Shown here: positions 1 through 26,545 of the stretch, in pieces
Layout of the letters: each line of letters begins with the position of its first letter
Position numbering within the stretch: the stretch's first letter is position 1
IMG/VR virus record: IMGVR_UViG_3300040801_002376
Location: 1 to 29,557 of that record
Source of the DNA: a virus
DNA: 29,557 nt
Strand: one strand, 5' to 3'
Position numbers and translations under genes: made by a program
The notes under the pieces: model-generated
What the model was told of the DNA's origin: nothing
What the model saw: only the letters and a program-made list of their open reading frames with translations
The model's database searches: none

Positions 1-1140
1 ATGATCAATAGCAAGAAAGCCTTCGGCTCCAGTTACTTTAAATCCGTTTTGTGTCTTAACAAAGGTGTTAATCTTATTCAATCTGTTTAGTTTATTTATA
101 ACTTTTAATTTCGCAACAACCAGAGATTTCTGGAGATCAAATAATAATTTTAAGTTTTTCTTATTTGATTCGTCAAAGAATTTGAGGAATTCATCACGCT
201 TTTGTGCTTGAGCAGTTTTACCCTTTTCACTTTTACGCTTATCAATTTCTTTTTGATATTTGTCTGAGATGTATTTTACTAATCCATCTACATGTCTTTG
301 CGTATTACCAATTGGCTTATTTGCACGAACATACGTATTGTTGTATGTTTCTATAGTACGGGCCAAGTCTTGATTGGATTCAATTTGCTTAAGGGTCGTA
401 CTAGAAATTTGCTTAAAAATACGTCCAGCTTCTGACAAAGCCTTGGTGACCTCTGCAGTTTCTTTCTTTGTAAGCGTAACCGTGCCAGATAGATCTCGCA
501 GTTGGGCGTCCTGTGCCCAGACAGACTTGACCTTTCTATACTTGCTGACGTCGACTCCGTACTTTGCACGCATGCTTTCGAAATCTTTTCCTTCGTAAGC
601 AGTGTGGAAAACAACTCCAATACGCGCCGATCGAATTCGCTTGGCCTCATCGCTAGAATCAGGGACAGCGTATACAATGGTATTAGGATGAAAAGTAATA
701 TAAGATTCTCCATCAATGGTCTCCTTTTTCAAATCGTCAGATGTAAACATCACGTCGCCTTGAACAACACCTTTGATGCCAAGCTTTGATAGCTCGGACA
801 ACGCGATTTTCATTTTGTTGTTTAGATCAGCATTCGGGATATCTTCATCGATATCCGCATTTGTTTTATACACCTTTGGATTCTTGTTAAAAATTCCTTT
901 TTTAGCTACGAAGAACTTACCATCAGTTGGATCAATCCCGCAGAAGACAGCAGGTGCGCCATCCCATTTGACTGTTACATCTCTTGCGCCAGCCGAAGTT
1001 CCAGACAACATATCGCGCATAGCACGAAGTGCAAGGATAGCTTCACGTGCACCTTTTACTCCACCGTAGATCACTTGATCTTCGATGTGAGTCATGTGAG
1101 TGTTTTTCTCTTCAGATAGGTATTGGCTAAACTTAATCAT
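1..1140 (-). CDS. DUF6267-like protein, possible nucleotidyltransferase and packaged head protein (3' end outside window)
   Basis: The frame opens with ATG at 1140 and stays open for 380 codons to the window edge, so the C-terminus is missing. It resembles DUF6267 proteins of marine T4-like phages, whose function is unknown. Residues 58-61 read KWDG, like motif I (KxDG) of covalent nucleotidyltransferases/ligases. QGDVMF at 127-132 could be a motif III equivalent and EGFLAID at 373-379 a motif IV equivalent. The usual motif V would lie beyond the edge. The first ten residues, MIKFSQYLSE, have the pattern of the T4 capsid-targeting peptide ending in an LxE protease site. It follows the 1147-2235 gene, six bases apart, and probably shares its late promoter. 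DUF6267 membership is from memory of the family; the enzymatic role is inference. Confidence 0.75.
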   Translation of the reverse strand, partial: MIKFSQYLSEEKNTHMTHIEDQVIYGGVKGAREAILALRAMRDMLSGTSAGARDVTVKWDGAPAVFCGIDPTDGKFFVAKKGIFNKNPKVYKTNADIDEDIPNADLNNKMKIALSELSKLGIKGVVQGDVMFTSDDLKKETIDGESYITFHPNTIVYAVPDSSDEAKRIRSARIGVVFHTAYEGKDFESMRAKYGVDVSKYRKVKSVWAQDAQLRDLSGTVTLTKKETAEVTKALSEAGRIFKQISSTTLKQIESNQDLARTIETYNNTYVRANKPIGNTQRHVDGLVKYISDKYQKEIDKRKSEKGKTAQAQKRDEFLKFFDESNKKNLKLLFDLQKSLVVAKLKVINKLNRLNKINTFVKTQNGFKVTGAEGFLAIDH

Positions 1141-1146
1141 ATTTTC

Positions 1147-2235
1147 CTACTTTGCAGTGAAATCACACATCATACGAGTTGGGTATCCGTCTTTACCCTG
1201 GGTGTCTCTGATGTTGATTTTAAATTTGTATGACGCTGACTGGAATTCTACATCGACTCGTTTGCCACGACCGGTTTTACCACCGTAATATACGGTAACA
1301 TTACCAACTGGCTTTGCAGCCTTTTTCATCGCAGCTTGGTTCATCTCTTTTGAAACAATTCCCTTTGTCATTTTGTGGATGATATGGTAATTATAACCTA
1401 TTCCTGACTGCAATAACATCTCTATTTTGCGACTGTCTGGTTTAGCTTTAGTGTCGATACTACCCTTGCCAGTATTAAATACTTCAGCAAATTTAATTGG
1501 GTCAATACCAAAGATTTTAAGGAGATTCAACCCATCTCTATCGGTAATAGTACCTGCTTTGATCTGAGCTGGAGAGAGGATTTTTCTTACACCTACGTTA
1601 AAGAACGTAGTAGTTGTGCCTAGTTTAAGGCTAAGGTAAATTTCACGGTTGTCAGTAACCAATGTGATATCCGTGACTGACTTACCGATATCGAATCCAG
1701 ATCCTTTTGGGTTATCTAGAATAATGTTCGAACCGAACTTGAGAGGGCGTTTAGTATTCTCGCCACCAACCACATTGACCTCTAGCTTACTTGAATCGTT
1801 TAGCTTATAGGTCTTATCAAGGTCTTGAATGGCGGCAAGCATTTTTTTGTCTTTGACTTCTTCGCCGTTCCACCATGCATTCATAGCGTCAGCAAATTGG
1901 CCTTCAAATAAGTTACCACGGTTGTTTGCACCACGGTTACCTGATGATCCATTACCGAACTTGAGCTTAAGCTTCTTGATACCAGAGCCAGATACAATGT
2001 CAGAAATTTCTGTTTCAGACTGAAGTGCACGAGTAACGTTAATGTTATTCTGCTTCTTCATATCAATATTGATAGGAGCATCAACACTTGGATACTTTGC
2101 TTTCAAGAAAGTAAACAGTGCTTTAATCTCGTTCTGATTATCTGGAGAAAAATCTTTTAACTGACTTTCTATCTCTTCGACAGATTTTGGAAAGAAAGAA
2201 TACATCTCTGATAAAAATTCCTTAAATGGTAACAT
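1147..2235 (-). CDS. Late conserved phage protein with capsid-targeting-like N-terminus and possible nuclease-like core
   Basis: This 362-residue protein starts with ATG at 2235, just downstream of an exact T4-type late promoter box. I do not recognise the family with certainty. The N-terminus MLPFKEFLSE matches the T4 internal-protein targeting pattern (aromatic at 4 and 7, L8-x-E10). A Gly/Asn-rich stretch at 93-107 precedes a helix containing E111. Strands then follow with VTDITL (D189) and YLSLKLG (K204), which resembles a PD-(D/E)XK arrangement in which the acidic residue before xK is a serine. It shares a late transcript with the DUF6267-like gene. A packaged DNA-binding or nuclease-like protein is inference; a plain structural protein is equally possible. 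Confidence 0.7.
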   Translation of the reverse strand: MLPFKEFLSEMYSFFPKSVEEIESQLKDFSPDNQNEIKALFTFLKAKYPSVDAPINIDMKKQNNINVTRALQSETEISDIVSGSGIKKLKLKFGNGSSGNRGANNRGNLFEGQFADAMNAWWNGEEVKDKKMLAAIQDLDKTYKLNDSSKLEVNVVGGENTKRPLKFGSNIILDNPKGSGFDIGKSVTDITLVTDNREIYLSLKLGTTTTFFNVGVRKILSPAQIKAGTITDRDGLNLLKIFGIDPIKFAEVFNTGKGSIDTKAKPDSRKIEMLLQSGIGYNYHIIHKMTKGIVSKEMNQAAMKKAAKPVGNVTVYYGGKTGRGKRVDVEFQSASYKFKINIRDTQGKDGYPTRMMCDFTAK

Positions 2236-2267
2236 TTGTCTTATAGCCCAAATTTAATTGTTTATAC

Positions 2268-2275
2268 TATTTATA
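2268..2275 (-). promoter_or_regulatory. T4-type late promoter box TATAAATA
   Basis: On the minus strand the sequence is an exact TATAAATA, the consensus of T4 late promoters read by gp55 with gp33/gp45. It lies about 33 bases upstream of the ATG at 2235 and just after the terminator that closes the early block. It marks the switch from early/middle genes on the right to late genes on the left. Confidence 0.8.
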
Positions 2276-2305
2276 ATAAAAAAGAAGCCGGCTTGCGCCG
2301 GCTTT
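2274..2305 (-). terminator. Rho-independent terminator closing the early block
   Basis: On the minus strand an 8-bp stem AAGCCGGC/GCCGGCTT with a GCAA tetraloop is followed by CTTTTTT. It sits just after the stop codon at 2327 and directly before the late promoter of the next gene. It probably stops transcripts from the promoters at 3289-4168. Confidence 0.9.
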
Positions 2306-2326
2306 AGGTGGAGAGAGAACATTATA

Positions 2327-2749
2327 TTATAGTACTTCTTCGAAACATTCTATTGCAAGTTGGCGTTCTAGTCGAAAAGCTTCTTTTTCCCACGGATAGT
2401 CGGCATATGACATGCTAGTAGGATAAACCTTTTTCTTCCAGCGGATGTAATTTCCATCAAGCGAAACCATTTCATTGCGCACATACTGCTTCAGATGAGT
2501 GAGCTCGTGAGTAAGAGTAGAGACTAGATCATATAGACGGAGAGACTTATCCACCTCTATCTCATACTCACGATCACCATACTGCATGCAGTATCCATAT
2601 GCACCGTCCCGAGACATACAGTTTGTAAGCTTTACTGTAATCTCAATGGTACGGTACCTGGGCAGCATCTTCTTCAGATACCAACCAACAACTTTGTGTG
2701 CCAGCTCTTTTTGCTTGGCTGTTCCACCTTTTATCTCAACTGTGTTCAT
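2327..2749 (-). CDS. Zincin-like metallopeptidase (HELTH), SprT-like
   Basis: The 140-residue protein carries HELTH at 81-85, the HExxH zinc site of zincins. E121 or E123 in the YPWEKEAF segment is a plausible third ligand, as in SprT-like or M48-type small phage proteins. There is no signal peptide or membrane segment, so it should act in the cytoplasm. Its start overlaps the stop of the upstream small gene as ATGA, implying translational coupling, and a terminator follows. Substrate is unknown; the family label beyond zincin is tentative. Confidence 0.8.
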   Translation of the reverse strand: MNTVEIKGGTAKQKELAHKVVGWYLKKMLPRYRTIEITVKLTNCMSRDGAYGYCMQYGDREYEIEVDKSLRLYDLVSTLTHELTHLKQYVRNEMVSLDGNYIRWKKKVYPTSMSYADYPWEKEAFRLERQLAIECFEEVL

Positions 2750-2922
2750 AGAAATCCTTGGTCAGGTTCAGGCCAATCATCGGGTTGAGGACTTTCTAGT
2801 TCTTTAATTATATCCTCAACCATATGTTTTGGCGCACCGGTTGAATTGCTGATATCCTCAATAGAGTCACCAGCATAAAACCGTTCTTGTACATCAAATA
2901 TTAAATTAGACATTCTAGACAT
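2746..2922 (-). CDS. Small conserved phage protein, 58 aa
   Basis: ATG at 2922 follows AGGAG at 8 bases, which favours it over the ATG nine bases later. The product starts MSRMSNLIF, is acidic and mostly helical, with a GAPKHMVEDIIKEL segment that could be a small helix-turn-helix-like unit, and a proline-rich tail DDWPEPDQ. The stop overlaps the start of the zincin gene by four bases (ATGA). Function unknown. Confidence 0.75.
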   Translation of the reverse strand: MSRMSNLIFDVQERFYAGDSIEDISNSTGAPKHMVEDIIKELESPQPDDWPEPDQGFL

Positions 2923-2933
2923 AAGGGATCTCC

Positions 2934-3257
2934 TTACCGACGGCGTAAGATATACGCGTCAACCTTTTCAGCACATTCAAGAGGAAGTGATTGAGCGACT
3001 AGGTGTTTGATGCTACGATCAGGAAGACGTCCATTGTACTTTTTAGTATAGTACTCTTTGGCACGTTCGAACCGATTTTCGCCACGACCTTGAAGTTTGA
3101 CACGGAACTGATAGTCCATGTTTGACTGACGCAAAGACCTATTCATGTTCTTAACCATAGCACGAAGTTCTTCGAGCTGAAGCATATCGTCGGCACAACC
3201 GTAGTGGAATGTTCCGATATATGCGTCTGTACGTTTTTTGTCTATTTGAATTCCCAT
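2934..3257 (-). CDS. Conserved hypothetical protein, basic, 107 aa
   Basis: First gene after the early promoter at 3289-3317, with AAGGAGAG upstream of ATG 3257. The protein is strongly basic and ends in RRR. An internal ENRFERAKEYYTKKY segment is likely helical. No domain is recognised; the charge would suit binding nucleic acid or an acidic host protein, but that is a guess. Early expression suggests a host-takeover role. Confidence 0.7.
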   Translation of the reverse strand: MGIQIDKKRTDAYIGTFHYGCADDMLQLEELRAMVKNMNRSLRQSNMDYQFRVKLQGRGENRFERAKEYYTKKYNGRLPDRSIKHLVAQSLPLECAEKVDAYILRRR

Positions 3258-3281
3258 TTGATCTCTCTCCTTATCAATTTA

Positions 3282-3317
3282 TGGTATCATTATACCACAC
3301 CTTTGGGCCTTTGTACA
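3282..3317 (-). promoter_or_regulatory. Early sigma70-type promoter with palindrome over the -10
   Basis: On the minus strand the -35 TGTACA (3312-3317) and the -10 TATAAT (3289-3294) are separated by 17 bp. The -10 is embedded in a perfect inverted repeat TGGTAT-CATT-ATACCA (3282-3297). It drives the 2934-3257 gene and the genes down to the terminator at 2274. Confidence 0.85.
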
Positions 3318-3335
3318 CACTTTTTTTGAAAAAAG

Positions 3336-3512
3336 TTAAATTATTTTTTGAATTTTTTCAATGGATTCTGGAGATCCGGAAACGGTGATTTCTGGGTTTC
3401 CGCCGCCAGGTCCGACCGCGATGAACGATTCGAGTTTAATATCATATTCGGTTAGGAATTCCAGAAATTCTTGAATTGGACAGTCGTACGCGATATCAAA
3501 AGTGTAAGTCAT
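3336..3512 (-). CDS. Small conserved protein, 58 aa
   Basis: ATG at 3512 is preceded by GGAG at 8 bases. The product begins MTYTFDIAYD, has a central GPGGGNPEITVSG segment and a C-terminal helix ESIEKIQKII. The strand-helix-strand plan with a glycine-rich turn recalls a tiny KH- or ferredoxin-like fold, which is inference only. It has its own early promoter at 3540-3568 and sits upstream of the next early promoter. Function unknown. Confidence 0.75.
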   Translation of the reverse strand: MTYTFDIAYDCPIQEFLEFLTEYDIKLESFIAVGPGGGNPEITVSGSPESIEKIQKII

Positions 3513-3539
3513 ATTAGTTCTCCATCAGATTACTTAGAC

Positions 3540-3568
3540 ACTATACACCGCATGAAATCATTTGTACA
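3540..3568 (-). promoter_or_regulatory. Early sigma70-type promoter
   Basis: Minus strand: -35 TGTACA at 3563-3568, 17-bp spacer, -10 TATAGT at 3540-3545. It lies just downstream of the stop of the 3577-3789 gene and drives the small gene starting at 3512. The -10 has one mismatch and there is no clean palindrome. Confidence 0.75.
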
Positions 3569-3576
3569 CAGTTATT

Positions 3577-3789
3577 TTAGTAAAAGCTTTTTTTAAACTT
3601 TTTTCCTGGCATAATCTCATCACCGTTCATTTGGATGATGCCTTCTTTTTCAAGGATTTTAAGCGTGGAGTCAGTTCCCTTCTGTACTCCCTCTGCAAAT
3701 CCAGCAATCTTAGCCTTTTTGCTAAGATCCATGACGGATAGTATCCACCAGGCAAGCACAATTAATCCCATCCACCATTCTACGTACAC
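3577..3789 (-). CDS. Small membrane protein, 70 aa
   Basis: Residues 4-20 (EWWMGLIVLAWWILSVM) form one transmembrane segment, followed by a basic cytoplasmic tail with KKAK and ending GKKFKKSFY. The positive tail suggests an N-out/C-in inner-membrane protein. The start overlaps the end of the upstream 3780-4109 gene by ten bases, so both are co-translated from the early promoter at 4139. Function unknown; an early host-envelope modifier is possible. Confidence 0.7.
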   Translation of the reverse strand: MYVEWWMGLIVLAWWILSVMDLSKKAKIAGFAEGVQKGTDSTLKILEKEGIIQMNGDEIMPGKKFKKSFY

Positions 3790-4109
3790 AGGTCTTCCTC
3801 CTTGATATAGTCCATAGGACTTACTGACTTCATAATACTCATCTTAAAATCGAGATGGTCGTCATCAAACTTCGACCGATACTCTTCTAGTGTCTCAACT
3901 TCAATTGGAAACTCCTTCCAACCGATGGTGTTCTCCATGGCGATAGCAGCGACAAATGCCATAGCATCCTGAGGACGGTCCAGGCCTTGTACAAGGTAGT
4001 CTGTACCAGACTTAAACTTCCAATACTGGCTGCCATCCGCAAATCTGCCAGATTCACAGTGTGCACCATAATTTTCTAAGGCCTGGCATGAAACAACAAA
4101 AGTACCCAT
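3780..4109 (-). CDS. Conserved phage protein, 109 aa
   Basis: Starts MGTFVVSCQALENYGAH with GAGGAGAG upstream and contains QYWKFKSGTDYLV, a motif I associate with a widespread small family of marine T4-like phages whose function is unknown. Single globular domain, acidic C-terminus, no membrane segment. It is the first gene of an early transcript starting at the promoter 4139-4167. Confidence 0.75.
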   Translation of the reverse strand: MGTFVVSCQALENYGAHCESGRFADGSQYWKFKSGTDYLVQGLDRPQDAMAFVAAIAMENTIGWKEFPIEVETLEEYRSKFDDDHLDFKMSIMKSVSPMDYIKEEDLCT

Positions 4110-4138
4110 AATGATCTCTCCTCACTGATTATGGTACC

Positions 4139-4167
4139 ATTATACAACAGAAAAAGGGGCTTGTACA
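4139..4167 (-). promoter_or_regulatory. Early sigma70-type promoter
   Basis: Minus strand: -35 TGTACA at 4162-4167, 17-bp spacer, -10 TATAAT at 4139-4144. The palindrome over the -10 is degenerate here (TGGTAC-CATT-ATACAA). The -35 box forms the loop of the terminator at 4151-4178. Confidence 0.85.
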
Positions 4168-4178
4168 CCCCTTTTTTT
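4151..4178 (-). terminator. A/T-tract hairpin terminator overlapping the next promoter
   Basis: A perfect inverted repeat AAAAAGGGG/CCCCTTTTT flanks an eight-base loop that contains TGTACA. On the minus strand it is a U-tract terminator placed 25 bases after the stop at 4203, and the same bases supply the -35 of the following early promoter. It is symmetrical and could also stop plus-strand transcription. Confidence 0.75.
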
Positions 4179-4202
4179 ACTTTTTTATATAATATTTAAG
4201 TA

Positions 4203-4532
4203 TTAACGAACTTTAATCTTAATCAGATCGAACCGTTCAGGTCCAACAATGAACCACTGGCCAGTTTCGGTGTTATTGAGTAAGTCTCCAACACCAATAT
4301 TCCTGAGCAGGCCGGTTCTTAAGATAAGCGGGTTATCCCGACTTCCGTTGATTAGCTTCTTAACCTGAGCGCTATCAGTAGCCTCCACATCAGCAGTTTT
4401 TTCATACCTGCCTTCTCGGAAAGCCAGGCGTGCATCTGCCTGTGTGAATGCGTTTGAGATGCCATAGAAAACTGACAAAGATGCCAGTTCCCTATTTGCC
4501 TTTTTGATTTGATATACGCTGTGTTTAGCCAT
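4203..4532 (-). CDS. Conserved hypothetical protein, 109 aa
   Basis: Soluble mixed alpha/beta protein starting MAKHSVYQIKKANREL. The C-terminal half (NIGVGDLLNNTETGQWFIVGPERFDL) looks like a small beta barrel or SH3-like unit. It overlaps the upstream 4525-4743 gene by eight bases and is the last gene before the terminator at 4151. Not recognised. Confidence 0.7.
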   Translation of the reverse strand: MAKHSVYQIKKANRELASLSVFYGISNAFTQADARLAFREGRYEKTADVEATDSAQVKKLINGSRDNPLILRTGLLRNIGVGDLLNNTETGQWFIVGPERFDLIKIKVR

Positions 4533-4743
4533 AAAGTGTCTCTATCTTTTTAATGCCGAGTGCCCAGTTTTCTGCTGCAGACTCAACATAGTGAAGTGAT
4601 TTATTCGGGAACTCTTCCCTGAAGAAAAATTTATCATTGGAGTCAAAGTATTCAATGTAAGCAATCTCTTCTCTGAAATCCATACAGACATCGGCTTTAC
4701 CTTTGCCGGCCTCTGCGTAATATGTAGATATCTTCTTACCCAT
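4525..4743 (-). CDS. Conserved phage protein, 72 aa
   Basis: Starts MGKKISTYYAEAGKGKADV with AAAGG eight bases upstream of ATG 4743. Compact acidic protein with aromatic strands YIEYFD and FFFREEF. Resembles small unknown proteins of cyanophage-type T4 relatives. Co-transcribed with thyX. No enzymatic motif is visible. Confidence 0.7.
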   Translation of the reverse strand: MGKKISTYYAEAGKGKADVCMDFREEIAYIEYFDSNDKFFFREEFPNKSLHYVESAAENWALGIKKIETLYG

Positions 4744-4754
4744 ATTTATAACCT

Positions 4755-4955
4755 TTAACTAAAGAATTTTTCCAACATTTCAATTCTATCGTTTGCTGTT
4801 GCCATAGTATCCAGTTCGCACTGAATAGCCTCAACGATATCACTGTGTTCACCAATACCAACACTAGACTTCATATAGACCATAATGTTAGTTTTAGCTC
4901 GTTCGAGTTCGCCCTCGGCATGCATCCGCGCTGCCTTGACCAGTTGTTCCTTCAT
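4755..4955 (-). CDS. Small helical protein, 66 aa
   Basis: Almost entirely helical: MKEQLVKAARMHAEGELERAK opens one long amphipathic helix and IEMLEKFF ends another. Likely an oligomeric bundle. It lies between thyX and the 4525-4743 gene with short spacing, so it is in the same operon. Function unknown; similar small proteins occur in marine T4-like phages. Confidence 0.7.
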   Translation of the reverse strand: MKEQLVKAARMHAEGELERAKTNIMVYMKSSVGIGEHSDIVEAIQCELDTMATANDRIEMLEKFFS

Positions 4956-4968
4956 TGTATTTCCTTTC

Positions 4969-5634
4969 TTACTCTACAAAGTCATTTACCATAGGGAAGA
5001 TTTTAGTGATTGCTTCGGCACATGCCTTAGCTACTTCAATATGTTCTTTTTGCGTTCCATTGCCTGAACGAAGCTCAATAAAGTGGATCCATGACCGGAT
5101 CGACCCTTGCATATAAAGACGAGACTTAGTATTACCTTCTGGCAAAACTGCACGTGCCTGCTCTTTTGCGATACCATTTTCAATAGCCCAGTTGTAGTGT
5201 TCCTTGGCTTTATCAATAACGTCTTGCTGTCGCATCCGCCATTCACCTTCGAGCTTTGGATCTACGTTATCAATAGAGTTCTGACGATTCTTTGTATCTT
5301 GCAAACGTGCTTCGCGCAGTACAAATGAGTCTCCAAACTCACGAGGATCGGCATACCGCTGACTAAACTCTTGGAATGCAAAAGAACGGTGCCGTAGCAT
5401 CTGACGTGCAATGTCACGTGTTGTTTCGATTTCCATAGTAGCAGAAGCCATTTCAAATGGTGACCAGTGTTTATGCTTTGCCAAGTAACCAAGAAGCTTT
5501 GGTGCAGTCTCTTGGTTTAATTGGTTAGATGGATTAGATACTCGTGCGCAATACGCAATCAAGTCCTGTACATCATCAAGTCCAATGATTGCATCAGCAA
5601 CAGGTTGAGTATATCCGATAAGTCTTACATTCAT
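4969..5634 (-). CDS. thyX: Flavin-dependent thymidylate synthase ThyX
   Basis: Makes dTMP from dUMP using methylene-tetrahydrofolate, FAD and NADPH, feeding phage DNA synthesis. The diagnostic RHRx7S signature is present: R81-H82-R83 and S91 in RHRSFAFQEFSQRY. The conserved HxHWSPFE segment lies at 54-61. Length 221 residues is normal for the family. It overlaps the gp41 gene by four bases. Because dTMP is made here, the TS-fold protein at 11914-12585 need not be a thymidylate synthase, which supports reading that one as a hydroxymethylase. Confidence 0.95.
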   Translation of the reverse strand: MNVRLIGYTQPVADAIIGLDDVQDLIAYCARVSNPSNQLNQETAPKLLGYLAKHKHWSPFEMASATMEIETTRDIARQMLRHRSFAFQEFSQRYADPREFGDSFVLREARLQDTKNRQNSIDNVDPKLEGEWRMRQQDVIDKAKEHYNWAIENGIAKEQARAVLPEGNTKSRLYMQGSIRSWIHFIELRSGNGTQKEHIEVAKACAEAITKIFPMVNDFVE

Positions 5635-6989
5635 GCTTTAAATCCTGAAAAATCTAGTTTGTCTTTTTGCGGAGCTACCTGTGGGGCAGTATCCGCGATT
5701 AGTGTTTGTGCTGATGCTTCAACATCATACAATCTCATTCTGGCTCGATCGACCCCGATAACAAATCGTTTATTGGTAGTGGGGTCGTTGTATCTATTCT
5801 TGAGCTGTTTGACCATGATTTGGCCGAGGCTTTCGAGTTCTTCGTTCGATATGAGGGCGAACATGAGATCTGCAGTTGCAGGAAGACCAAAGGATTCCGA
5901 CGTGTCTTCAAGGCCAACGTCAGTGTTTGAATATCCGCTTCGAGTTGTCTGAGTCGCCGATACAATGGGCACGTCGAATTCGACTGCAAGTCCTCGAATT
6001 TCTTCAGCAATTGACTTGATGAGGGAATATGTATTAACCGATCCACTTAAACCTTTCATTCTTGCTGAAGAACAAATGTTAAGATAGTCAATGAAGATAA
6101 TATCCGGTTCAAAGCTTTTCTTAAGCTTAAGCTCTTTTAACAAAGCTCGGAAGTGTCCGGTGTGAGCCGAACCAGTTGGATATTCTTTTACAATCAGCTT
6201 GCCAATTGTCTTCTTTGCGATTGCCGCTATCTTATTGTCAAAAGTATTTTTGTCGATTTTATCCAGTTGGTCAATGGGCATATTCATCAAGTTAGCATCG
6301 ATACGTTCAGCAATTCGTTCTTCTGCCATTTCCATAGTAATATACAAAACATTCTTACCTTGGGTCATAGCCGCTGCGCCTACGTGACACATGAATAACG
6401 ACTTACCAACACCTGTACCAGCCAGCGCGATATTTAGAGTCTTATTAGGTAATCCACCTTTTGTGATCTGGTTAAAGTAATCCAGGTCAAAAGGCATCCT
6501 TCCTTCTACTTTGTGGTAAAAGTCAAAGCGATCGTCAGAGTTATTAATATAGTCGTGGCCAATGTCCTGATCAAAGTTAACAGACAAAGCCTCAGATAAA
6601 ATCTCAGGAATTGCGTTGTTAGTCAGTTCAGACTTGCCATCAATAATCTCAATAGATTTCATAATAGAAAGAAAAACGGCACGATCTTGGCACCATTTTT
6701 CAGTCTTTTCTAATAACCAATCCATATCAGCTGGCTCGGGTGTCACCACATCGTTGATTAGATGAGCCGCTGCTTGGTATTTATCAGCTGAAACATTTGT
6801 CTCATCTAGTTCGATTTTAAGTGCTTCGCCAGTAGGGATCTTGTTGTATTTACCAACATACTGAAGAACGGTATCGAAGACGGCACGATGCTCGTCTTCG
6901 AAGTATTCCTTCTTTAGATATGGGATAACTCTTCGAGTAAAATCTTCATTGGTTAGTAGATTCCTCAATACTGTTGTCTGTAGACTCAT
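5631..6989 (-). CDS. 41: Replicative DNA helicase (T4 gp41, DnaB family)
   Basis: Hexameric 5'-3' helicase of the phage replisome. Counting from the chosen start, the N-terminal helical domain covers about 1-150 and the RecA-like ATPase follows: Walker A GTGVGKS at 191-197, Walker B IIFIDYLNI, then a sensor SATQTTRSGYSNTD and a C-terminal KNRYND segment typical of DnaB. I chose the ATG at 6989 (MSLQTTVLRN), which has AGGA upstream, rather than the longer ATG at 7022, which overlaps the upstream gene more. Sits in the uvsX-gp41-thyX block typical of T4 relatives. Confidence 0.95.
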   Translation of the reverse strand: MSLQTTVLRNLLTNEDFTRRVIPYLKKEYFEDEHRAVFDTVLQYVGKYNKIPTGEALKIELDETNVSADKYQAAAHLINDVVTPEPADMDWLLEKTEKWCQDRAVFLSIMKSIEIIDGKSELTNNAIPEILSEALSVNFDQDIGHDYINNSDDRFDFYHKVEGRMPFDLDYFNQITKGGLPNKTLNIALAGTGVGKSLFMCHVGAAAMTQGKNVLYITMEMAEERIAERIDANLMNMPIDQLDKIDKNTFDNKIAAIAKKTIGKLIVKEYPTGSAHTGHFRALLKELKLKKSFEPDIIFIDYLNICSSARMKGLSGSVNTYSLIKSIAEEIRGLAVEFDVPIVSATQTTRSGYSNTDVGLEDTSESFGLPATADLMFALISNEELESLGQIMVKQLKNRYNDPTTNKRFVIGVDRARMRLYDVEASAQTLIADTAPQVAPQKDKLDFSGFKA

Positions 6990-7308
6990 CGCCAATCCTA
7001 TACTTATCGTTTTCAAATGCATCTTGTAAGATGTGGTTTAGAACGTCTCCAATATAGTTATTGAAGTTGTTATCATTCTCAAGTTCTTCTTGATCATGAT
7101 CACCAGGTTCTAGGATCTGGTATTGGAACTTAAGGTTCGCAATACCATCACCGTTTTCTTCCACATGGTCAATCTTTGCCGTTACTTTTCCATAACAGTA
7201 GACCACACCTGCATACTTGGTTTTGAGCTTTACCGCCCATTGTTCATTGAAACCATTGTCTGCAAATGTGTAATCGTCTATTGTGATATCATTATACATC
7301 ATTTTCAT
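6946..7308 (-). CDS. Conserved phage protein between uvsX and gp41, 120 aa
   Basis: Acidic protein starting MKMMYNDITIDDYTF. Strands KYAGVVYCYGKVTAKIDHV give a likely beta domain, and the C-terminal 40 residues are Asp/Glu/Asn-rich. It overlaps uvsX by 17 bases and gp41 by 44. Its position between recombinase and helicase suggests a replication or recombination accessory role; I see no similarity to UvsY or gp59 that I could defend. Three ATGs stand close together, so the start may be three or four codons later. Confidence 0.75.
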   Translation of the reverse strand: MKMMYNDITIDDYTFADNGFNEQWAVKLKTKYAGVVYCYGKVTAKIDHVEENGDGIANLKFQYQILEPGDHDQEELENDNNFNNYIGDVLNHILQDAFENDKYRIGDESTDNSIEESTNQ

Positions 7309-8347
7309 CGAGAAGTAAACCCCCTTCTATCATAGAACGGTAACCAATTGTAAATTGTTTTTTGATGAACTCTTTGAAATCAGTTTCTTCAAGGATTGGT
7401 TTCCAGAACTCTTCGGTAAGAGTTGCAGCTGCACGAACTTTAGGATCAAGCAATTCACCAGTTTCACGGTCGACAACACAGTACCAACCATTTGATGGTT
7501 TAGCCACATAATTACCGGCCAGAGCAATGTCAAGTAGACCACTGTACTTCTCAATACCGCCATCCCACGATACGCTTACTGGAATCTTAGATTTCTCTTT
7601 GACATAACGAGACTTTTCAACGTTAATAATAAAGTCGTAACCAGTAACTTCTGTACCTGTCTTATTTTGACGACGACCCAAGATCCAGATATTATCGGCT
7701 GAATAGTAAATGCCTGTACCACCACCCACAACGTCTTTCGGGAACAAACCGATTTCTTTATATGTGTGGTTAATAGCAAGAAGAGAAATATTCTTCATTG
7801 TAAGGTATGGGGTAACCATACGGAATAGACCTTTAAGTGCCTTTGCACGAGACATATCTGCAACAGATTTCTCGTTGAGTGCATCCTCAAGTTCTTTCTT
7901 TGATGCAAGGTTACCAATAGAATCGATAACAATAATGACTTTATCGCCACGGTCAATGTTCTCAAGTTGGCCAACCAGGTCGAATTTAAGCTGCTCAACA
8001 TCTGTAATAGGAGTATGCAATACACGACCGGCATCAATGCCAAACGTTTCAAAGTAAGCTTGTGGTGAACCAAACTCAGAGTCATAGAACAACATAACAG
8101 CATCTTCATGCTCTCGAAGATATGCTGCAGCCATAAGCAAAGCAAACGAAGTCTTAAAGTGCTTCGAAGGACCGGCAAGAACAGTCAACCCTGACACGAG
8201 ACCGCCATCAACAGATCCACTCAGTGCAACATTAACCATTGGTACTTCGGTAGTCACAATATCCTTTTGAGCAAAAAGAACCGATTCAGAAAGAATAGCA
8301 GTATCCTTAATCTTGGTATTCTTTTTTAGTTTATTCATAATTGACAT
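7292..8347 (-). CDS. uvsX: UvsX RecA-like recombinase
   Basis: Strand-exchange protein for recombination-dependent replication and repair. Walker A is GPSKHFKTS at 59-67, matching the T4 UvsX form GPSKxFK. Walker B is VIIVIDSIGNL, and a VGGGTGIYYSAD loop corresponds to the DNA-binding region. The acidic C-terminus LLLDENDV is typical. Length 351 residues is close to T4 UvsX. ATG 8347 has AAGG eight bases upstream. It follows a small gene and the early promoter at 8551, consistent with early expression. Confidence 0.95.
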   Translation of the reverse strand: MSIMNKLKKNTKIKDTAILSESVLFAQKDIVTTEVPMVNVALSGSVDGGLVSGLTVLAGPSKHFKTSFALLMAAAYLREHEDAVMLFYDSEFGSPQAYFETFGIDAGRVLHTPITDVEQLKFDLVGQLENIDRGDKVIIVIDSIGNLASKKELEDALNEKSVADMSRAKALKGLFRMVTPYLTMKNISLLAINHTYKEIGLFPKDVVGGGTGIYYSADNIWILGRRQNKTGTEVTGYDFIINVEKSRYVKEKSKIPVSVSWDGGIEKYSGLLDIALAGNYVAKPSNGWYCVVDRETGELLDPKVRAAATLTEEFWKPILEETDFKEFIKKQFTIGYRSMIEGGLLLDENDV

Positions 8348-8348
8348 G

Positions 8349-8519
8349 TTAATTACCTTTTGATACGCGGATTTGAACTATATCCGCTTCTGTGATTTTA
8401 CCGTCTTCGATCATTTGATTCAGTTGTTTTTCTGAATATACACTAAACCCCTTACTGGATCCACTTTTTTTAATCCAATATGCTTGAGACGCGTTAATTT
8501 TTTGGTTTCGCCGTGGCAT
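8349..8519 (-). CDS. Small basic protein upstream of uvsX, 56 aa
   Basis: ATG at 8519 follows GGAG at 6 bases. The product starts MPRRNQKINASQAYW, is basic, and has a helix SEKQLNQMIEDGKIT followed by a short strand DIVQIRVSK. It could be a small winged or MerR-like nucleic-acid-binding unit, but this is not certain. First gene of the transcript from the promoter at 8551. Confidence 0.7.
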   Translation of the reverse strand: MPRRNQKINASQAYWIKKSGSSKGFSVYSEKQLNQMIEDGKITEADIVQIRVSKGN

Positions 8520-8543
8520 TATCTACTCCGTTTGATTTGATGT

Positions 8544-8579
8544 TGGTATTATTATACCATAAACTCATCTAGTTGTACA
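8544..8579 (-). promoter_or_regulatory. Early promoter overlapping the stop codon of the upstream gene
   Basis: Minus strand: -35 TGTACA at 8574-8579, 17-bp spacer, -10 TATAAT at 8551-8556. Perfect inverted repeat TGGTAT-TATT-ATACCA at 8544-8559. The stop codon TAA of the 8552-9601 gene is part of the -10 box. Drives the small gene at 8519, uvsX, gp41 and thyX. Confidence 0.85.
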
Positions 8580-9601
8580 CCTTTATTTTTAGGCTCACCT
8601 TGTCTTTGTTCCCATCCCGAGATCCAACCTGAGTTATTAGATAGGCTAGATGGGATATGGCCAAATGTATCATCACTTCGTGGTACGTAATTCTGACCGA
8701 ACCGAACAAAGTCGCACATCACATCTTCGTTATCCCGAGGCGCACCACCCATACGTTCACACAGTAAATCCATAAAGGAATCTGTATCATATCCACTTGA
8801 CAATAGTTTCATACAACGAACTGCATTATTTCCAAAGTATCCATGTGACATATCATCAACCAGATCTTTGTGGTAGTCACCTAAATCATATGAGAATGCA
8901 GCGTAGACAAAGTTAAATCGTTTGTGTCCTTGTTCTACGTTATGTTGATTTAAATAGTCAACCACTTCTTTGTGTGTTCTCTTACGACCTTCTTTTGGCA
9001 TCCAATCCATAAACCGGTCGAGCAACGGTTCAAGCTCATTAACCATAAAATCAAGGCAAGTAACACCCTTACGAGGAGAAGGTGGTTGGTTACCAATAGA
9101 TGTAAACAGTGGTTTACCTGCACCCTTGGTTTCAACCATGAGATCTTTCATGTCTTGGATATCTCGTAGAGTACCAAAGCGATGTACGATATTATTTCGA
9201 TAACCGTGATCTCGAGTAAACGATGCACCTGAACCGGTAATGCGGTGTGCCAAATAAACGTAGAACCAGGTTTTAGTATCCCAGCTGTCAGTGATATAGC
9301 TATCAACCAGATCCCAATAATCCTGGCCGAGTGCTGGGTTTTTAATCTGATGATGACGCTTCGGTGTTTCTCTACAGAACTTTAGATCCTGTAGAACGTT
9401 AGAAAAACCAGCAGCGTTTCGTGTGTAACAATCGTAAATATCTATCTCTTGCATCAGCGGATCGTTTACTGCAGCATCAGCTTCTGGCCCGAGGTAGGAT
9501 AGTTTACCCCAGTTGCAGTTCTCTTGCAGCCATTTGGCACGCGGATAATAATAGTTGACTAGTACATCTAGTGCTTCTTCATTCAGCCATTTCTTTGACA
9601 T
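8552..9601 (-). CDS. Putative aGPT-pyrophosphorylase-like base hypermodification enzyme
   Basis: Resembles alpha-glutamyl/putrescinyl thymine pyrophosphorylase (aGPT-Pplase) proteins, which are proposed to replace an activated hydroxymethyl group on DNA pyrimidines by an amine. From the chosen start, RITGSGASF falls near 120-128, HGYRNN at 132-137 and a TSIGNQPPSPRKG segment near 167-179; these are what remind me of the family. The ATG at 9649 has a good GGAG but would overlap the upstream gene by 71 bases; ATG 9601 (MSKKWLNEE) has GGGA and a 23-base overlap. Last gene of the modification cluster. The family call is from memory and should be treated as a hypothesis. Confidence 0.55.
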   Translation of the reverse strand: MSKKWLNEEALDVLVNYYYPRAKWLQENCNWGKLSYLGPEADAAVNDPLMQEIDIYDCYTRNAAGFSNVLQDLKFCRETPKRHHQIKNPALGQDYWDLVDSYITDSWDTKTWFYVYLAHRITGSGASFTRDHGYRNNIVHRFGTLRDIQDMKDLMVETKGAGKPLFTSIGNQPPSPRKGVTCLDFMVNELEPLLDRFMDWMPKEGRKRTHKEVVDYLNQHNVEQGHKRFNFVYAAFSYDLGDYHKDLVDDMSHGYFGNNAVRCMKLLSSGYDTDSFMDLLCERMGGAPRDNEDVMCDFVRFGQNYVPRSDDTFGHIPSSLSNNSGWISGWEQRQGEPKNKGVQLDEFMV

Positions 9602-10487
9602 TCTTTTCCCAATCTCTGTATGAGTCAATTCGATCGTAGATTGTTTCATCTTTTAGCTCCGGTTCTGTTCCGACATTCCAAAATAAAATGTCTTTATGTT
9701 TGGCTTCTTCTTTATTGATAAAACGCCAAACCTTAGCATCATACGTACCAATAGTTGGAAAGGGAGGCCAGAGATCTTTATCTTCTTCTTTTGTAAAGGC
9801 ATACGGATGGCTTATTGGAGTTGCTAAACCAAGCTCACCGGCTTTCATGTTACGTGATACACAAACCGAAGTAAACTTAGCATTAGGCCATGCAATTTGC
9901 AGCCCCCGTGTGAGCACGCCCGTGGACGTGGCAGTATACACTTCGTCTGGTTCTTTAAGTTTAGATGCTGACTTTACGATACCAGCAGTAACCATCTCAT
10001 GCTTTAAACCAAGTGGAATAAAGAAAGCGTTGTGGTGTTCATCAGCCCACTTCTTTGCAATCAGATTCAGGTTAGGCATTGCAGCAATACGATGAAAAGA
10101 TACCTCAGCACCACGCTCGATACAACATGCCTGGTGAATAGAAATCTTTTTAGATGAGGGCATGAACAGCATTACTTTTTTGTTATGACGTTTTGCCACA
10201 TCCAAAATAGATACACCAGCCAAACCTGTTCGTGGCTGAACATAAACAATAGTGTCTATCTCTTCAGGTAAAGAAGAAATGAGGCAGTCACCACCACGAA
10301 CTTTTGATCCAACCAGATAGTCATCACGTACGACACGTACACCATCATGCATTACTACTTCAGGTGTACCATAAGGATCTTCCCAGTCTTTGGCAAGGTT
10401 TAAGTAATATTCTTTTGCGTCTTCAAATGTGTAAAGGGGTCCAACGTCCTTGTTGACCCCATCGACTACGTGTTTATTATGAGCCAA
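9579..10487 (-). CDS. PLP-dependent enzyme, fold type II (ACC deaminase/cysteine-desulfhydrase-like)
   Basis: The VVRDDYLVGSKVRGG segment matches the lysine region of ACC-deaminase-like enzymes, with K62 as the probable Schiff-base lysine. A substrate loop RTGLAGVS and a phosphate-binding-like TSTGVLTRG follow. At 302 residues it is slightly short of the family norm. The start is TTG at 10487 (GGAG 11 bases upstream), overlapping the previous gene by eleven bases; no ATG occurs before M46, which would leave little before the lysine. Inside a cluster with a TS-like hydroxymethylase and a putative base pyrophosphorylase, it may trim or supply an amino-acid group on a modified base. Substrate unknown. 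Confidence 0.75.
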   Translation of the reverse strand: MAHNKHVVDGVNKDVGPLYTFEDAKEYYLNLAKDWEDPYGTPEVVMHDGVRVVRDDYLVGSKVRGGDCLISSLPEEIDTIVYVQPRTGLAGVSILDVAKRHNKKVMLFMPSSKKISIHQACCIERGAEVSFHRIAAMPNLNLIAKKWADEHHNAFFIPLGLKHEMVTAGIVKSASKLKEPDEVYTATSTGVLTRGLQIAWPNAKFTSVCVSRNMKAGELGLATPISHPYAFTKEEDKDLWPPFPTIGTYDAKVWRFINKEEAKHKDILFWNVGTEPELKDETIYDRIDSYRDWEKNVKEMAE

Positions 10488-11454
10488 GTAAAGTTACTCC
10501 CCAATCGTTTCTGTAATAAAATGGTGGAGCAATGTGGAATGATGATCCGTGCTCCATATATGTTTTTGCGTATGTCTCACCATCCATTGTGTACCAATCA
10601 CGGGGTGGAATAATTATGTTTCCGTTGGATTGTTTATCGAGTTCGTCAATAAAGTGCATTGTAACGTCTCGACGATCAGCGGAAGATCCGTAGAACGGGG
10701 TTCCTTTAAAGAATCCAGATTTGGGAATACGGCGACCTTCCCATTCAACGGGTACTGGACAACTATATAGTACTTGCACTCCGAACTTGGATTGAAGAAC
10801 TTCGCCCTCTCGGATGTACCGACTGACCAAATCTGCCACGTCATAATCATCGTGCCGGCAAATATGGTGCCTAATGTCAATAGAGCCAAAACAGAGATTA
10901 ATGACGCCAGTAGGTACCACGCCACGGAGCATAGATTCAAAACCATTTTTAAGAGCACCGTGAAGAGTTTTGCCATCGTTACGAAGCACACGATGCCTAT
11001 GCCCACTAAAAGCAATAGTGTGAGAATCTCCCAAAGTGACTGAGTCATAGTCTAAGTCCTCTTGTTTCAAGGAAGGCACATTCTTCAACCTATTAGAAAG
11101 TGCATCACACCATTCTTCGGTAATACCTTCGTAAGTAGTATTTGCGCCAATACGCTTTTTCAGCATTGCTCCATAGTCTGGCATATCCCAATCAAGTGAC
11201 ACGATATTATCACACGAAGCAACTAGGTTGATCCGATCAAATACTTCCTTTGTTGCACCACCAAATAGGTTAAGTGTACCACCAAAGTTAGCACCATGGT
11301 CGATGTAAACCTTGTTGTACAATGTAACATTTGGTGTACATTTATTATTAATATCGGCATTAAGCTGCTCAGCCCACAGCTGAGACCAGCCATGGGTGTG
11401 AGACTTTGGATTAACCGGTATATTAGATATAGGGTTTGTGATTACACTAGTCAT
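10477..11454 (-). CDS. SGNH/GDSL-like protein in the modification cluster
   Basis: Starting at ATG 11454 (MTSVITNP), the 325-residue protein has LGDSHT with the nucleophile-type GDSH at 142-145, a block-III-like FGSIDIRHH at 189-197 and FHIAP with H307 near the C-terminus. These agree with an SGNH hydrolase or transferase core, although the Asp normally three residues before the catalytic His is not obvious. About 130 N-terminal residues form an additional domain containing DHGANFGGTLNLFGG. It overlaps the dCMP deaminase gene by eight bases. An acyl or ester transfer role on a DNA base or nucleotide is speculation from context. Confidence 0.6.
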   Translation of the reverse strand: MTSVITNPISNIPVNPKSHTHGWSQLWAEQLNADINNKCTPNVTLYNKVYIDHGANFGGTLNLFGGATKEVFDRINLVASCDNIVSLDWDMPDYGAMLKKRIGANTTYEGITEEWCDALSNRLKNVPSLKQEDLDYDSVTLGDSHTIAFSGHRHRVLRNDGKTLHGALKNGFESMLRGVVPTGVINLCFGSIDIRHHICRHDDYDVADLVSRYIREGEVLQSKFGVQVLYSCPVPVEWEGRRIPKSGFFKGTPFYGSSADRRDVTMHFIDELDKQSNGNIIIPPRDWYTMDGETYAKTYMEHGSSFHIAPPFYYRNDWGVTLLGS

Positions 11455-11902
11455 CGATAAACTGCCAAGCAACCCCGGCCTCTGAAAATAGTTCTTGAGT
11501 AAGCTTAAAAGATTCTGTCCATACCTCAGGAGTATCTTCCTGAGATGGCATAATTACCTGTTTAACACCAACCTGGATAAGACCCTTTGCACACTCAGAA
11601 CAGACAGGAAGACCTGTAACATACACAGTAGATCCATCAAGGGAAACACCATTATATGTTGCGTTATAAATCAGATTCATTTCGGCATGAACAACAAATT
11701 TATATTTAGTCTCACGGTCATTTAACCGCTCTGGGCTGTGACGAATATTACGGGGAAAGCCATTATAGCCTTGAGCCAAAACCTGGCCTTTATCACCAAC
11801 TGCCACTGCACCAATCTTACGAGACGGGTCTTTAGACCAAGTTGAGATTTCCTTAGCGAGGCTTAGATAACGTTTATTCCAATCATGACGAAGTGTGGGC
11901 AA
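11447..11902 (-). CDS. cd: Deoxycytidylate (dCMP) deaminase
   Basis: Converts dCMP to dUMP, the substrate of ThyX. Zinc and catalytic motifs are complete: HAEMN with H72 and E74, and PVCSEC with C101 and C104. The start is TTG at 11902 with AAGGA eight bases upstream; there is no ATG in frame near the N-terminus and the residues from RHDWNKRYLSLA are conserved in the family. Length 151 residues is normal. It lies between the TS-like gene and the SGNH gene, so it may also serve nucleotide supply for base modification. Confidence 0.93.
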   Translation of the reverse strand: MPTLRHDWNKRYLSLAKEISTWSKDPSRKIGAVAVGDKGQVLAQGYNGFPRNIRHSPERLNDRETKYKFVVHAEMNLIYNATYNGVSLDGSTVYVTGLPVCSECAKGLIQVGVKQVIMPSQEDTPEVWTESFKLTQELFSEAGVAWQFIDD

Positions 11903-11913
11903 ATCAGTATTCC

Positions 11914-12585
11914 TTATTTAACTAGATCGAAGTGGCGTTCGTATACGTGGAGATTCATCACTTGCCAGGTGAGATCACCTTTTTCAACATAGACATCAAA
12001 CTGTTCTGCTAGTGATCCGATGGCATAATCCATAAGATACTGAGCCCACGCATAATCATTCTTATATCCAAATACAACATCGTTTGAACGCATTTGAGAT
12101 ACCATATGCAGCTTACCATCACGGATATAGAAGGTTTGCGCATTGGTACAGATGAAGTCAGACTTGCCACCTTCATCGAATTCAACCCAGATTGATGGAC
12201 GGTTGTAAACCATTTGAGCACGGCGAGAGTCAGGATTGCCAGCTAGTTCTTCAATAGCCTTGTAATATTGACCATGATACTTTTCAGAAAAAACTAAGTG
12301 ACCATAGTTTGAATTAATGTTACCATGGGCATCGGCCGAGTACTGCCATGCTGCAGGAGGAGCCTTATCTTTACCATGGATATCATTAATGTTGGTTGAC
12401 ATTGATTCGTACCAAGCTAGCTCGGCATTAATGTATTCCTGGCTTGGCATGCCGAAAATAGATGGTTCATCAGCTATAAAAGATGCACCTAACATTTCGA
12501 TAGTTTTAGCACCAGTTTTATCAACAGTGAATCGTTTGTGAGCTAGTTCAGATTTAAAGTAATCTCTTACATCATTTACATTCAT
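11914..12585 (-). CDS. Thymidylate-synthase-fold deoxypyrimidine hydroxymethylase, probably dCMP hydroxymethylase
   Basis: TS family with catalytic C146 in FICTNA and the RSND signature at 166-169. The residue at the place of N177 of E. coli TS is D177 (GYKND), the change known to favour dCMP over dUMP in T4 gp42. The phage already has ThyX, so a methylating TS would be redundant. The product would be 5-hydroxymethyl-dCMP, later built into DNA. It heads a run of genes for deaminase, SGNH protein, PLP enzyme and pyrophosphorylase-like protein. Its start overlaps the preceding small gene by ATGA. dUMP hydroxymethylase remains possible. Confidence 0.8.
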   Translation of the reverse strand: MNVNDVRDYFKSELAHKRFTVDKTGAKTIEMLGASFIADEPSIFGMPSQEYINAELAWYESMSTNINDIHGKDKAPPAAWQYSADAHGNINSNYGHLVFSEKYHGQYYKAIEELAGNPDSRRAQMVYNRPSIWVEFDEGGKSDFICTNAQTFYIRDGKLHMVSQMRSNDVVFGYKNDYAWAQYLMDYAIGSLAEQFDVYVEKGDLTWQVMNLHVYERHFDLVK

Positions 12586-25972: not shown

Positions 25973-26545
25973 ATGAAAAAAATACTTCTCATGACCATAT
26001 TCCTAGGTGCTTGTTCAAAGGCACAACCCGTAGATTCAATAGGACCTATGGATGGTGTGGTATATTCAGCCGCGGTCAGGTTAGGACTAAACGAAAACGA
26101 AAATCGCCAAGAATTGAAATCATTCCTTGGCATCGATCCGGTTTATTACGAGTGGTGTGCAGCATTTGTTAATTCAGTCCTAAATGAAAACGATATTCCT
26201 GGATCAGAGTCAGTCAGCGATTACCCGCTTACAGCAAGAAGTTTTACTAACTGGGGTAACCGAGCAGACACCCCAGAAAGAGGAGATATCGTCGTATTCC
26301 CACGTGGTAATCAGGGATGGCAAGGTCATGTAGGATTCTATGTAAGAACCGTTATGGTTGATGGCAAAGAAATGTACATGATACTTGGAGGAAATCAATC
26401 TGACGAAGTTTCATTCGAACTGTTTCCTGCAAGTTCTGCAATCACAATACGACGTAGGCCCATGGAGTCAGTCAGGGAATTGAACCCTGCGACGATAGAT
26501 GATACGACGCCTTGGTATCGGTTACCGCTAGCAAGCCTGCACTGA
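25973..26545 (+). CDS. Lipoprotein with CHAP/NlpC-like peptidoglycan hydrolase domain (TIGR02594-like)
   Basis: Only plus-strand gene. MKKILLMTIFLGACSK is a lipoprotein signal with lipobox LGAC (C14), so the mature protein is anchored to a membrane and faces the periplasm. The peptidase domain has catalytic C62 (YEWCAAFVN), GDIVVF, H119 in GHVGFY, and GGNQSD at 139-144, as in TIGR02594 proteins. A lysis or entry role in cutting peptidoglycan is likely. The domain ends at residue 163; residues 164-190 are read from the antisense strand of a tRNA-like element, so the tail is probably non-native. Confidence 0.8.
   Translation: MKKILLMTIFLGACSKAQPVDSIGPMDGVVYSAAVRLGLNENENRQELKSFLGIDPVYYEWCAAFVNSVLNENDIPGSESVSDYPLTARSFTNWGNRADTPERGDIVVFPRGNQGWQGHVGFYVRTVMVDGKEMYMILGGNQSDEVSFELFPASSAITIRRRPMESVRELNPATIDDTTPWYRLPLASLH

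Follow-up and report, generated by a model that had tools for sequence, protein, structure and literature searches.

Predicted T4-type capsid-targeting propeptides on a nuclease-fold and a putative ligase-fold protein of a marine phage

Introduction

Two adjacent genes in a 29,557-base IMG/VR virus record (analysed whole and hereafter called the window) encode proteins that start with MIKFSQYLSE and MLPFKEFLSE, which raises the question of whether these residues are a T4-type capsid-targeting propeptide that brings enzymes into the phage head. The source is a Kyanoviridae-like T4-type phage of marine origin. Among named phages the closest DUF6267 protein to protein 1 is that of Phage C48C1 (54.9% identity), and a near-identity search of phages with window positions 1-12000 returned no match. 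We think it likely that both proteins carry such a propeptide and are expressed late, docked, cut, kept in the head and injected. The motif, the promoter, a rule at the cleavage junction, the spread of the tag over unrelated families and an association with the virion proteome of a relative are observed; docking, cleavage, packaging and injection of the two proteins, as well as their enzymatic activities, are inferred without virion data for this phage or its close kin.

The features of the locus are as follows.

1..1140, minus strand: gene of protein 1, DUF6267 (PF19782), ATG at 1140, predicted RNA-ligase-like nucleotidyltransferase
1147..2235, minus strand: gene of protein 2, ATG at 2235, 362 aa, restriction-endonuclease-like predicted fold, phrog_8438, no Pfam family
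1111..1140, minus strand: predicted capsid-targeting decapeptide MIKFSQYLSE of protein 1, predicted cleavage after E10
2206..2235, minus strand: predicted capsid-targeting decapeptide MLPFKEFLSE of protein 2, predicted cleavage after E10
952..969, minus strand: KWDGAP, residues 58-63 of protein 1, invariant
1624..1671, minus strand: putative catalytic stretch of protein 2 with invariant D189, S202 and K204, catalytic role inferred
2268..2275, minus strand: exact T4-type late promoter TATAAATA, common to both genes
2285..2304, minus strand: terminator-like hairpin followed by a T run, directly upstream of the late promoter (read by eye, no terminator tool)

Results

A gene pair behind a single late promoter

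The TATAAATA element at 2268-2275 lies 32 nt ahead of the ATG at 2235. Because the ATG at 1140 is only 6 nt past the stop codon of protein 2, both genes share this one promoter; the initial annotation had put each protein behind an exact late promoter, and the promoter is indeed exact and conserved, with one copy serving the pair rather than two. Exact TATAAATA occurs six times in the window versus 1.72 expected (0 of 100 shuffles reached six), and it was found within 80 nt upstream in 39 of 54 distinct protein-2 homologue regions versus 1.6% of random 80-nt stretches. Late expression of the pair is predicted from this conserved exact promoter, and there are no transcription data. Another exact copy stands 5 nt before the ATG of a small gene (25973-26545) that lies on the plus strand amid minus-strand genes and whose product has a lipoprotein-like start.

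The open reading frame of protein 1 runs past the window edge, with 380 aa inside and 413 aa in the near-identical contig L002. Near-identical contigs show that the late operon goes on with a tagged small basic protein (MLRLKEYIEE, 126 aa), an NMNAT/cytidylyltransferase-like enzyme (469 aa, with MHFKGFAEYVTE ahead of a cytidylyltransferase domain) and a tagged small protein (MIRFKQYISE, 99 aa). In contig L009, the nuclease gene is swapped for one encoding a 310-aa protein that starts with MRSFRGFITE and has no Pfam or PHROGs match.

Such replacements bear on the possibility that the proteins enter the prohead core merely to assist assembly or DNA packaging, without being injected. In T4, IPIII has an effect on head assembly (PMC9026906), and a nuclease with a ligase-like protein could serve packaging or repair. 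We nevertheless regard this as unlikely, since the mature parts are unrelated enzymes that are swapped for others at the same locus, which is more effector-like than scaffold-like, and injection is described for T4 internal proteins of this type (PMC12373910).

The decapeptides match the T4 targeting peptide

The reading of the N-termini as targeting propeptides starts from T4, where ipII and ipIII both begin with MKTYQEFIAE (NC_000866). The two decapeptides agree with it in an aromatic residue at positions 4 and 7, L/I at position 8 and E at position 10, so the resemblance to IPIII that the initial annotation had named holds at all four positions. These are also the positions assigned a function in T4, where residues 4 and 7 govern targeting and residues 8 and 10 govern processing (PMC9026906). 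With the strict pattern M-x(1,3)-[FY]-xx-[FYIMWLH]-[LIVM]-x-E, only proteins 1 and 2 matched among 57 non-overlapping ORFs of the window, whereas the rate within these proteins themselves predicts 0.20 matches.

Residues 2, 3, 5, 6 and 9 vary freely among 43 distinct, pattern-selected DUF6267 decapeptides, and without pattern selection F4 and E10 are each conserved in at least 90% of a 44-row DUF6267 alignment. The structural models are of low confidence at their N-termini (residues 1-9 in protein 2, residues 1-15 in DUF6267). In Phage C48C1, 7 of 200 ORFs carry the pattern, against 0.29 expected when one start is counted per ORF, and five of the seven lie in a cluster that opens with the DUF6267 gene. 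Like C48C1, Methylophilales phage Melnitz has a tagged DUF6267 (INFSKYITE). A control scan of T4 gave three matches in 263 ORFs, including ipII and ipIII. Several results count against reading the pattern as a tag: the third T4 match (20112-20411) is not a known internal protein, T4 ipI escapes the strict pattern, and the scans of HTVC008M (191 ORFs) and Sf-FP1 (256 ORFs) were without a match.

A junction rule points to cleavage

The strongest evidence for cleavage that can be drawn from sequence is the junction between extension and core. In a 42-row alignment of protein 2 (42 of 44 non-redundant sequences), all 25 extended homologues have (L/I/V)xE immediately before an [AMG]Y core, over extensions ranging from 10 to 118 residues, and 16 others place their start Met exactly at the core (M|AY..FPK). 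One row, L115, was set aside from this count, as it starts upstream of MAYDFF. Two sequences were left out of the alignment: L013, a tagged sequence that fits the junction rule, and L151, which also starts upstream of MAYDFF. A 35%-identical homologue outside the alignment follows the same rule (SLTE|AYDIFPK). In several long forms F4 and Y7 are retained and the LxE site lies further away, as in T4 IPI. A clade of protein-2 homologues (L104, L108, L109, L118, L136 and L140) has a different extension of 29-34 aa, mostly with a QLRP-like start and ending in LxE before the core, which is possibly a second type of targeting peptide.

DUF6267 behaves similarly: tagged forms read ...E|xKNTH, and the cyanophage forms examined are bare, starting M|AKNTHLEH, M|AKDGKNVHLEH or M|ANVTQLKHLEH. 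If the bare forms lose the Met ahead of Ala, they would end up with nearly the same N-terminus as cleavage would produce. In the DUF6267 alignment (44 of 51 non-redundant sequences), the script flagged the junction in 41 of 44 rows; two misses have LVE or IVE before an unrecognised core, and the third, L154, has FLTR, with the aromatics present and the E absent, which counts against the tag reading.

The tag is not universal. The strict pattern is missing in 43 of 58 distinct full-length protein-2 homologues, and the late promoter also precedes untagged ones, both of which speak against the targeting reading. On a tree of the protein-2 cores, the tag label has to change six times, and starred branches force at least four of these changes, a result in favour of the targeting reading. 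The initial annotation had named homologues lacking the motif as grounds for refutation; many protein-2 homologues do lack it, but what they lack ends exactly at the predicted cleavage point.

As for the protease, a gp21-type enzyme (S77) was present in 7 of 7 complete phages searched. No gp21 gene lies in the 29.5 kb window fragment, a point against the tag reading. T4 gp23 is cut after residue 65 (PMC9026906), and its site, FLTE|A, aligns with FLTE, FLSE and FLGE in C48C1, Melnitz-3 and HTVC008M (three of three relatives read).

These data weigh on a second alternative, in which the decapeptide is an uncleaved docking peptide for another late structure such as the tail, the baseplate or a replication complex. 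The gene pair does adjoin replication genes (helicase, RecA) and not head genes, and whole-virion mass spectrometry cannot tell the head interior from the tail. An uncleaved peptide is nonetheless improbable in our judgement given the invariant Glu, a (L/I/V)xE junction fixed at one point despite such variable extensions, the recurrence of (F)LxE where the capsid protein is cut, and the T4 precedent for residues 4, 7, 8 and 10 (PMC9026906). A cleaved, head-targeting propeptide, which the initial annotation had proposed, is thus supported by inference from the conserved positions, the junction rule and the virion proteins of a relative; packaging of the pair itself has not been shown.

The tag is spread over unrelated cores

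A propeptide would be expected by the initial annotation to keep a patterned first ten residues while the rest of the protein diverges, and this was found. Among related viral contigs (the best 80 of 197 and the best 80 of 165 loci, picked for DUF6267 or protein 2), 181 of 1751 distinct ORFs carry the pattern versus 5.2 expected, and their cores form 20 families. The families were counted by single linkage, and the largest (122) mixes DUF6267 and cytidylyltransferase sequences; outside the two largest groups there are still 44 tagged matches in 18 families. A chance resemblance or ordinary helical N-termini, for which one can cite the shortness of the motif and the modest p value of three proteins alone, is hardly credible against this excess in the sampled loci and the junction rule.

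Examples from these further families are a RimK-like ATP-grasp protein, a P-loop kinase, zeta-toxin/polynucleotide-kinase-like, in a region fetched for protein 2 (L146:546-1241), and a HAD-like protein with weak similarity to polynucleotide kinase (L113:3088-3711, MLKFKQYINE), whose gene is followed directly by those of an untagged nuclease homologue and a DUF6267 protein.

Tagged proteins in virions of relatives

The propeptide reading can be compared with published virion proteomes of cyanophages. For S-CREM2, 52 virion proteins have been listed (PMC10665884). When the pattern, chosen in advance, is applied to the authors' 219 CDS, 3 of 3 tagged CDS are in the list versus 49 of 216 others (Fisher p = 0.013). 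The tagged proteins (ORF6, ORF14 and ORF154) are a SAM hydrolase, an APH/ChoK-like kinase and a cytidylyltransferase. The association rests on three proteins. On self-called ORFs the count is 2 of 2 versus 46 of 208 (p = 0.05), with the kinase missed through a wrong start. A broader pattern, post hoc and chosen after seeing the N-termini, gives 4 of 5 on these ORFs (p = 0.010) and 5 of 7 on the annotated CDS (p = 0.009); ORF13 and ORF136 are virion-listed and fit only this looser pattern. The Cas9-like virion protein of S-CREM2 (OR473000 7704-10313) has a displaced tag-like LRFASFMAE near its N-terminus.

In the S-CREM2 list, the untagged DUF6267 protein (gp87) does not appear. S-SZBM1 gives a similar picture: a tagged cytidylyltransferase is among 30 listed virion proteins, and the list lacks both the untagged DUF6267 (SSZBM1_141) and the neighbour upstream of it (_142) (PMC9146016). 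A kinase has been found in S-CRM01 virions, for which 32% identity is given (PMC10665884). Gene 130c of S-CRM01 encodes a kinase that starts with MISFDQFLSE and is 32.1% identical to the S-CREM2 kinase; since the figures match, we took it to be the virion kinase. Virions of S-SM1 contain a cytidylyltransferase, T4-GC190 (PMC3037559), and those of S-SCSM1 an NMNAT-like protein (PMC9602691). Kinases and cytidylyltransferases recur in proteomic reports on cyanophage virions, which describe the question of cargo or contaminant as unresolved (PMC10665884, PMC9602691); the S-CREM2 authors allow for contamination of virions purified in CsCl by such proteins (PMC10665884).

Protein 2 has a predicted nuclease fold

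The model of protein 2 (pLDDT 89.4) is closest to HinP1I (Z 10.1) and MspI (Z 9.1), with the next row at 5.5; rmsd values are 4.3 and 4.8 over 200 residues. E111, D189, S202 and K204 are invariant. Relative to the catalytic D...(D/E/Q/N)xK, D189 and K204 are retained and S202 takes the acidic position, where members of the PD-(D/E)XK family have an acid, Gln or Asn. Foldseek alone gave nothing with E below 0.2 for this model. On its predicted fold, we regard protein 2 as a restriction-endonuclease-fold protein whose enzyme activity is inferred. PDB sequence searches with profiles of both proteins gave no credible match, neither model had a match with E below 0.001 in Foldseek alone, PADLOC returned nothing for five proteins, and NCBIfam returned nothing for proteins 1 and 2.

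Protein 2 has no relatives on plasmids and only one on a genome contig, which is phage-like and filed under a SAR11 MAG. A cellular restriction system as the explanation of protein 2 was ruled out on these grounds.

The window shows no depletion of GCGC or CCGG (observed/expected 1.17 and 0.98), so avoidance lends no support to a specificity like that of HinP1I or MspI. For a modified genome, avoiding these sites would be unnecessary. Genes for a dCMP deaminase and a thymidylate-synthase-family protein (11447-12585) adjoin PALP-like and two uncharacterised genes (8552-11472), and a separate ORF (4969-5634) resembles ThyX by eye. This could be a base-modification cluster, which would bear on self-protection from a packaged nuclease.

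Protein 1 is a predicted ligase-type nucleotidyltransferase

Protein 1 matches the DUF6267 (PF19782) profile with 320 bits (curated cut-off 27). K58-W-D60-G61, Q127-G-D129, E373-G374 and K387 are invariant in 44 DUF6267 rows, and the first of these contains KxDG, which we take to be motif I of covalent nucleotidyltransferases. The AlphaFold2 model of DUF6267 (pLDDT 79.7) has as its best solved structures 1xdn (Z 7.0), T4 Rnl2 2hvr (Z 6.8) and a Naegleria enzyme, 6vtf (Z 6.7). The top 17 VIA rows are all RNA ligases (Z 6.3-7.0), and the best Foldseek E is only 0.09. Scores this low would mean little without the KxDG motif. The initial annotation had seen nucleotidyltransferase-like motifs in one of the two proteins, and for protein 1 the invariant KxDG and the RNA-ligase-like best matches agree with it. 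We predict from the motif and the modelled fold that protein 1 is an RNA/DNA-ligase-type nucleotidyltransferase, with adenylyl transfer or ligation activity inferred. Because phrog_455 covers both DUF6267 and cytidylyltransferase, the two appear fused in some phages. DUF6267 was mentioned nowhere in a literature search that did not cover subscription papers.

Discussion

Under the propeptide reading, the pair would be transcribed late from the single TATAAATA promoter, aromatic residues 4 and 7 would dock the proteins in the prohead core, and the gp21-type prohead protease of the phage would cut after (L/I)xE at residue 10. The mature enzymes would then stay in the head alongside the DNA and may be injected together with it. 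Untagged nuclease homologues are usually still encoded beside a tagged DUF6267 and are late-promoted; it may be, as a conjecture, that the partner carries the nuclease into the head.

Possible cellular roles are nuclease attack on host DNA, RNA/DNA repair or counter-defence. We offer only tentatively, as a speculation that could well prove wrong, that the heads of some marine T4-type phages come preloaded with a set of propeptide-tagged enzymes for nucleic acids. The set would comprise a nuclease with a restriction-endonuclease fold, a nucleotidyltransferase with an RNA-ligase fold, an NMNAT-like enzyme, and proteins resembling polynucleotide kinase and phosphatase. It would act on host nucleic acid, or repair host-inflicted damage, at the very start of infection, before any phage gene expression, with modified phage DNA possibly protecting itself.

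A readable tag settles cargo versus contaminant for individual virion proteins, and with nothing but sequence it predicts which proteins may be injected by an abundant group of ocean viruses. If packaged, a nuclease-fold protein together with a ligase-fold protein would make an unusual payload. No description of a capsid-targeting sequence in marine T4-like phages was found in a literature search that left out subscription papers, and the available parts of the S-CREM2, S-SZBM1, S-SCSM1 and S-SM1 virion reports do not mention a targeting peptide.

Comparison with known systems

Taken separately, the predicted enzymes have recognisable counterparts. DUF6267 resembles RNA ligases of the T4 Rnl2/REL1/Naegleria type in its KxDG motif and best structure matches (Z 6-7), and differs from them in its low Z scores, about 10% identity and a helical insertion at about residues 225-354. 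Protein 2 resembles the type IIP enzymes HinP1I and MspI in predicted fold and in its conserved D and SxK; unlike them, it is phage-borne and propeptide-tagged, and identity is about 10%.

Virion-associated enzymes of S-CREM2, S-SZBM1, S-SCSM1 and S-SM1 include a kinase, a SAM hydrolase, a Cas9-like nuclease and an NMNAT/cytidylyltransferase. The SAM hydrolase, kinase and cytidylyltransferase of S-CREM2 and the cytidylyltransferase of S-SZBM1 share the tag with the pair described here. Unlike in this phage, DUF6267 of S-CREM2 and S-SZBM1 is untagged, and it is absent from the virion lists.

The closest parallel is T4 itself. As in IPI, IPII and IPIII, a ten-residue propeptide pattern and predicted late expression go with mature parts that are mutually unrelated, and long tag variants like that of IPI (MKTFKEFT...TITE) also occur among the homologues here. 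The internal proteins of T4 are small and inhibit type IV restriction (PMC12373910), whereas the cargo here is enzyme-sized, at about 360-410 aa. On the propeptide reading, a known T4 device is extended to marine T4-type phages and to unexpected cargo.
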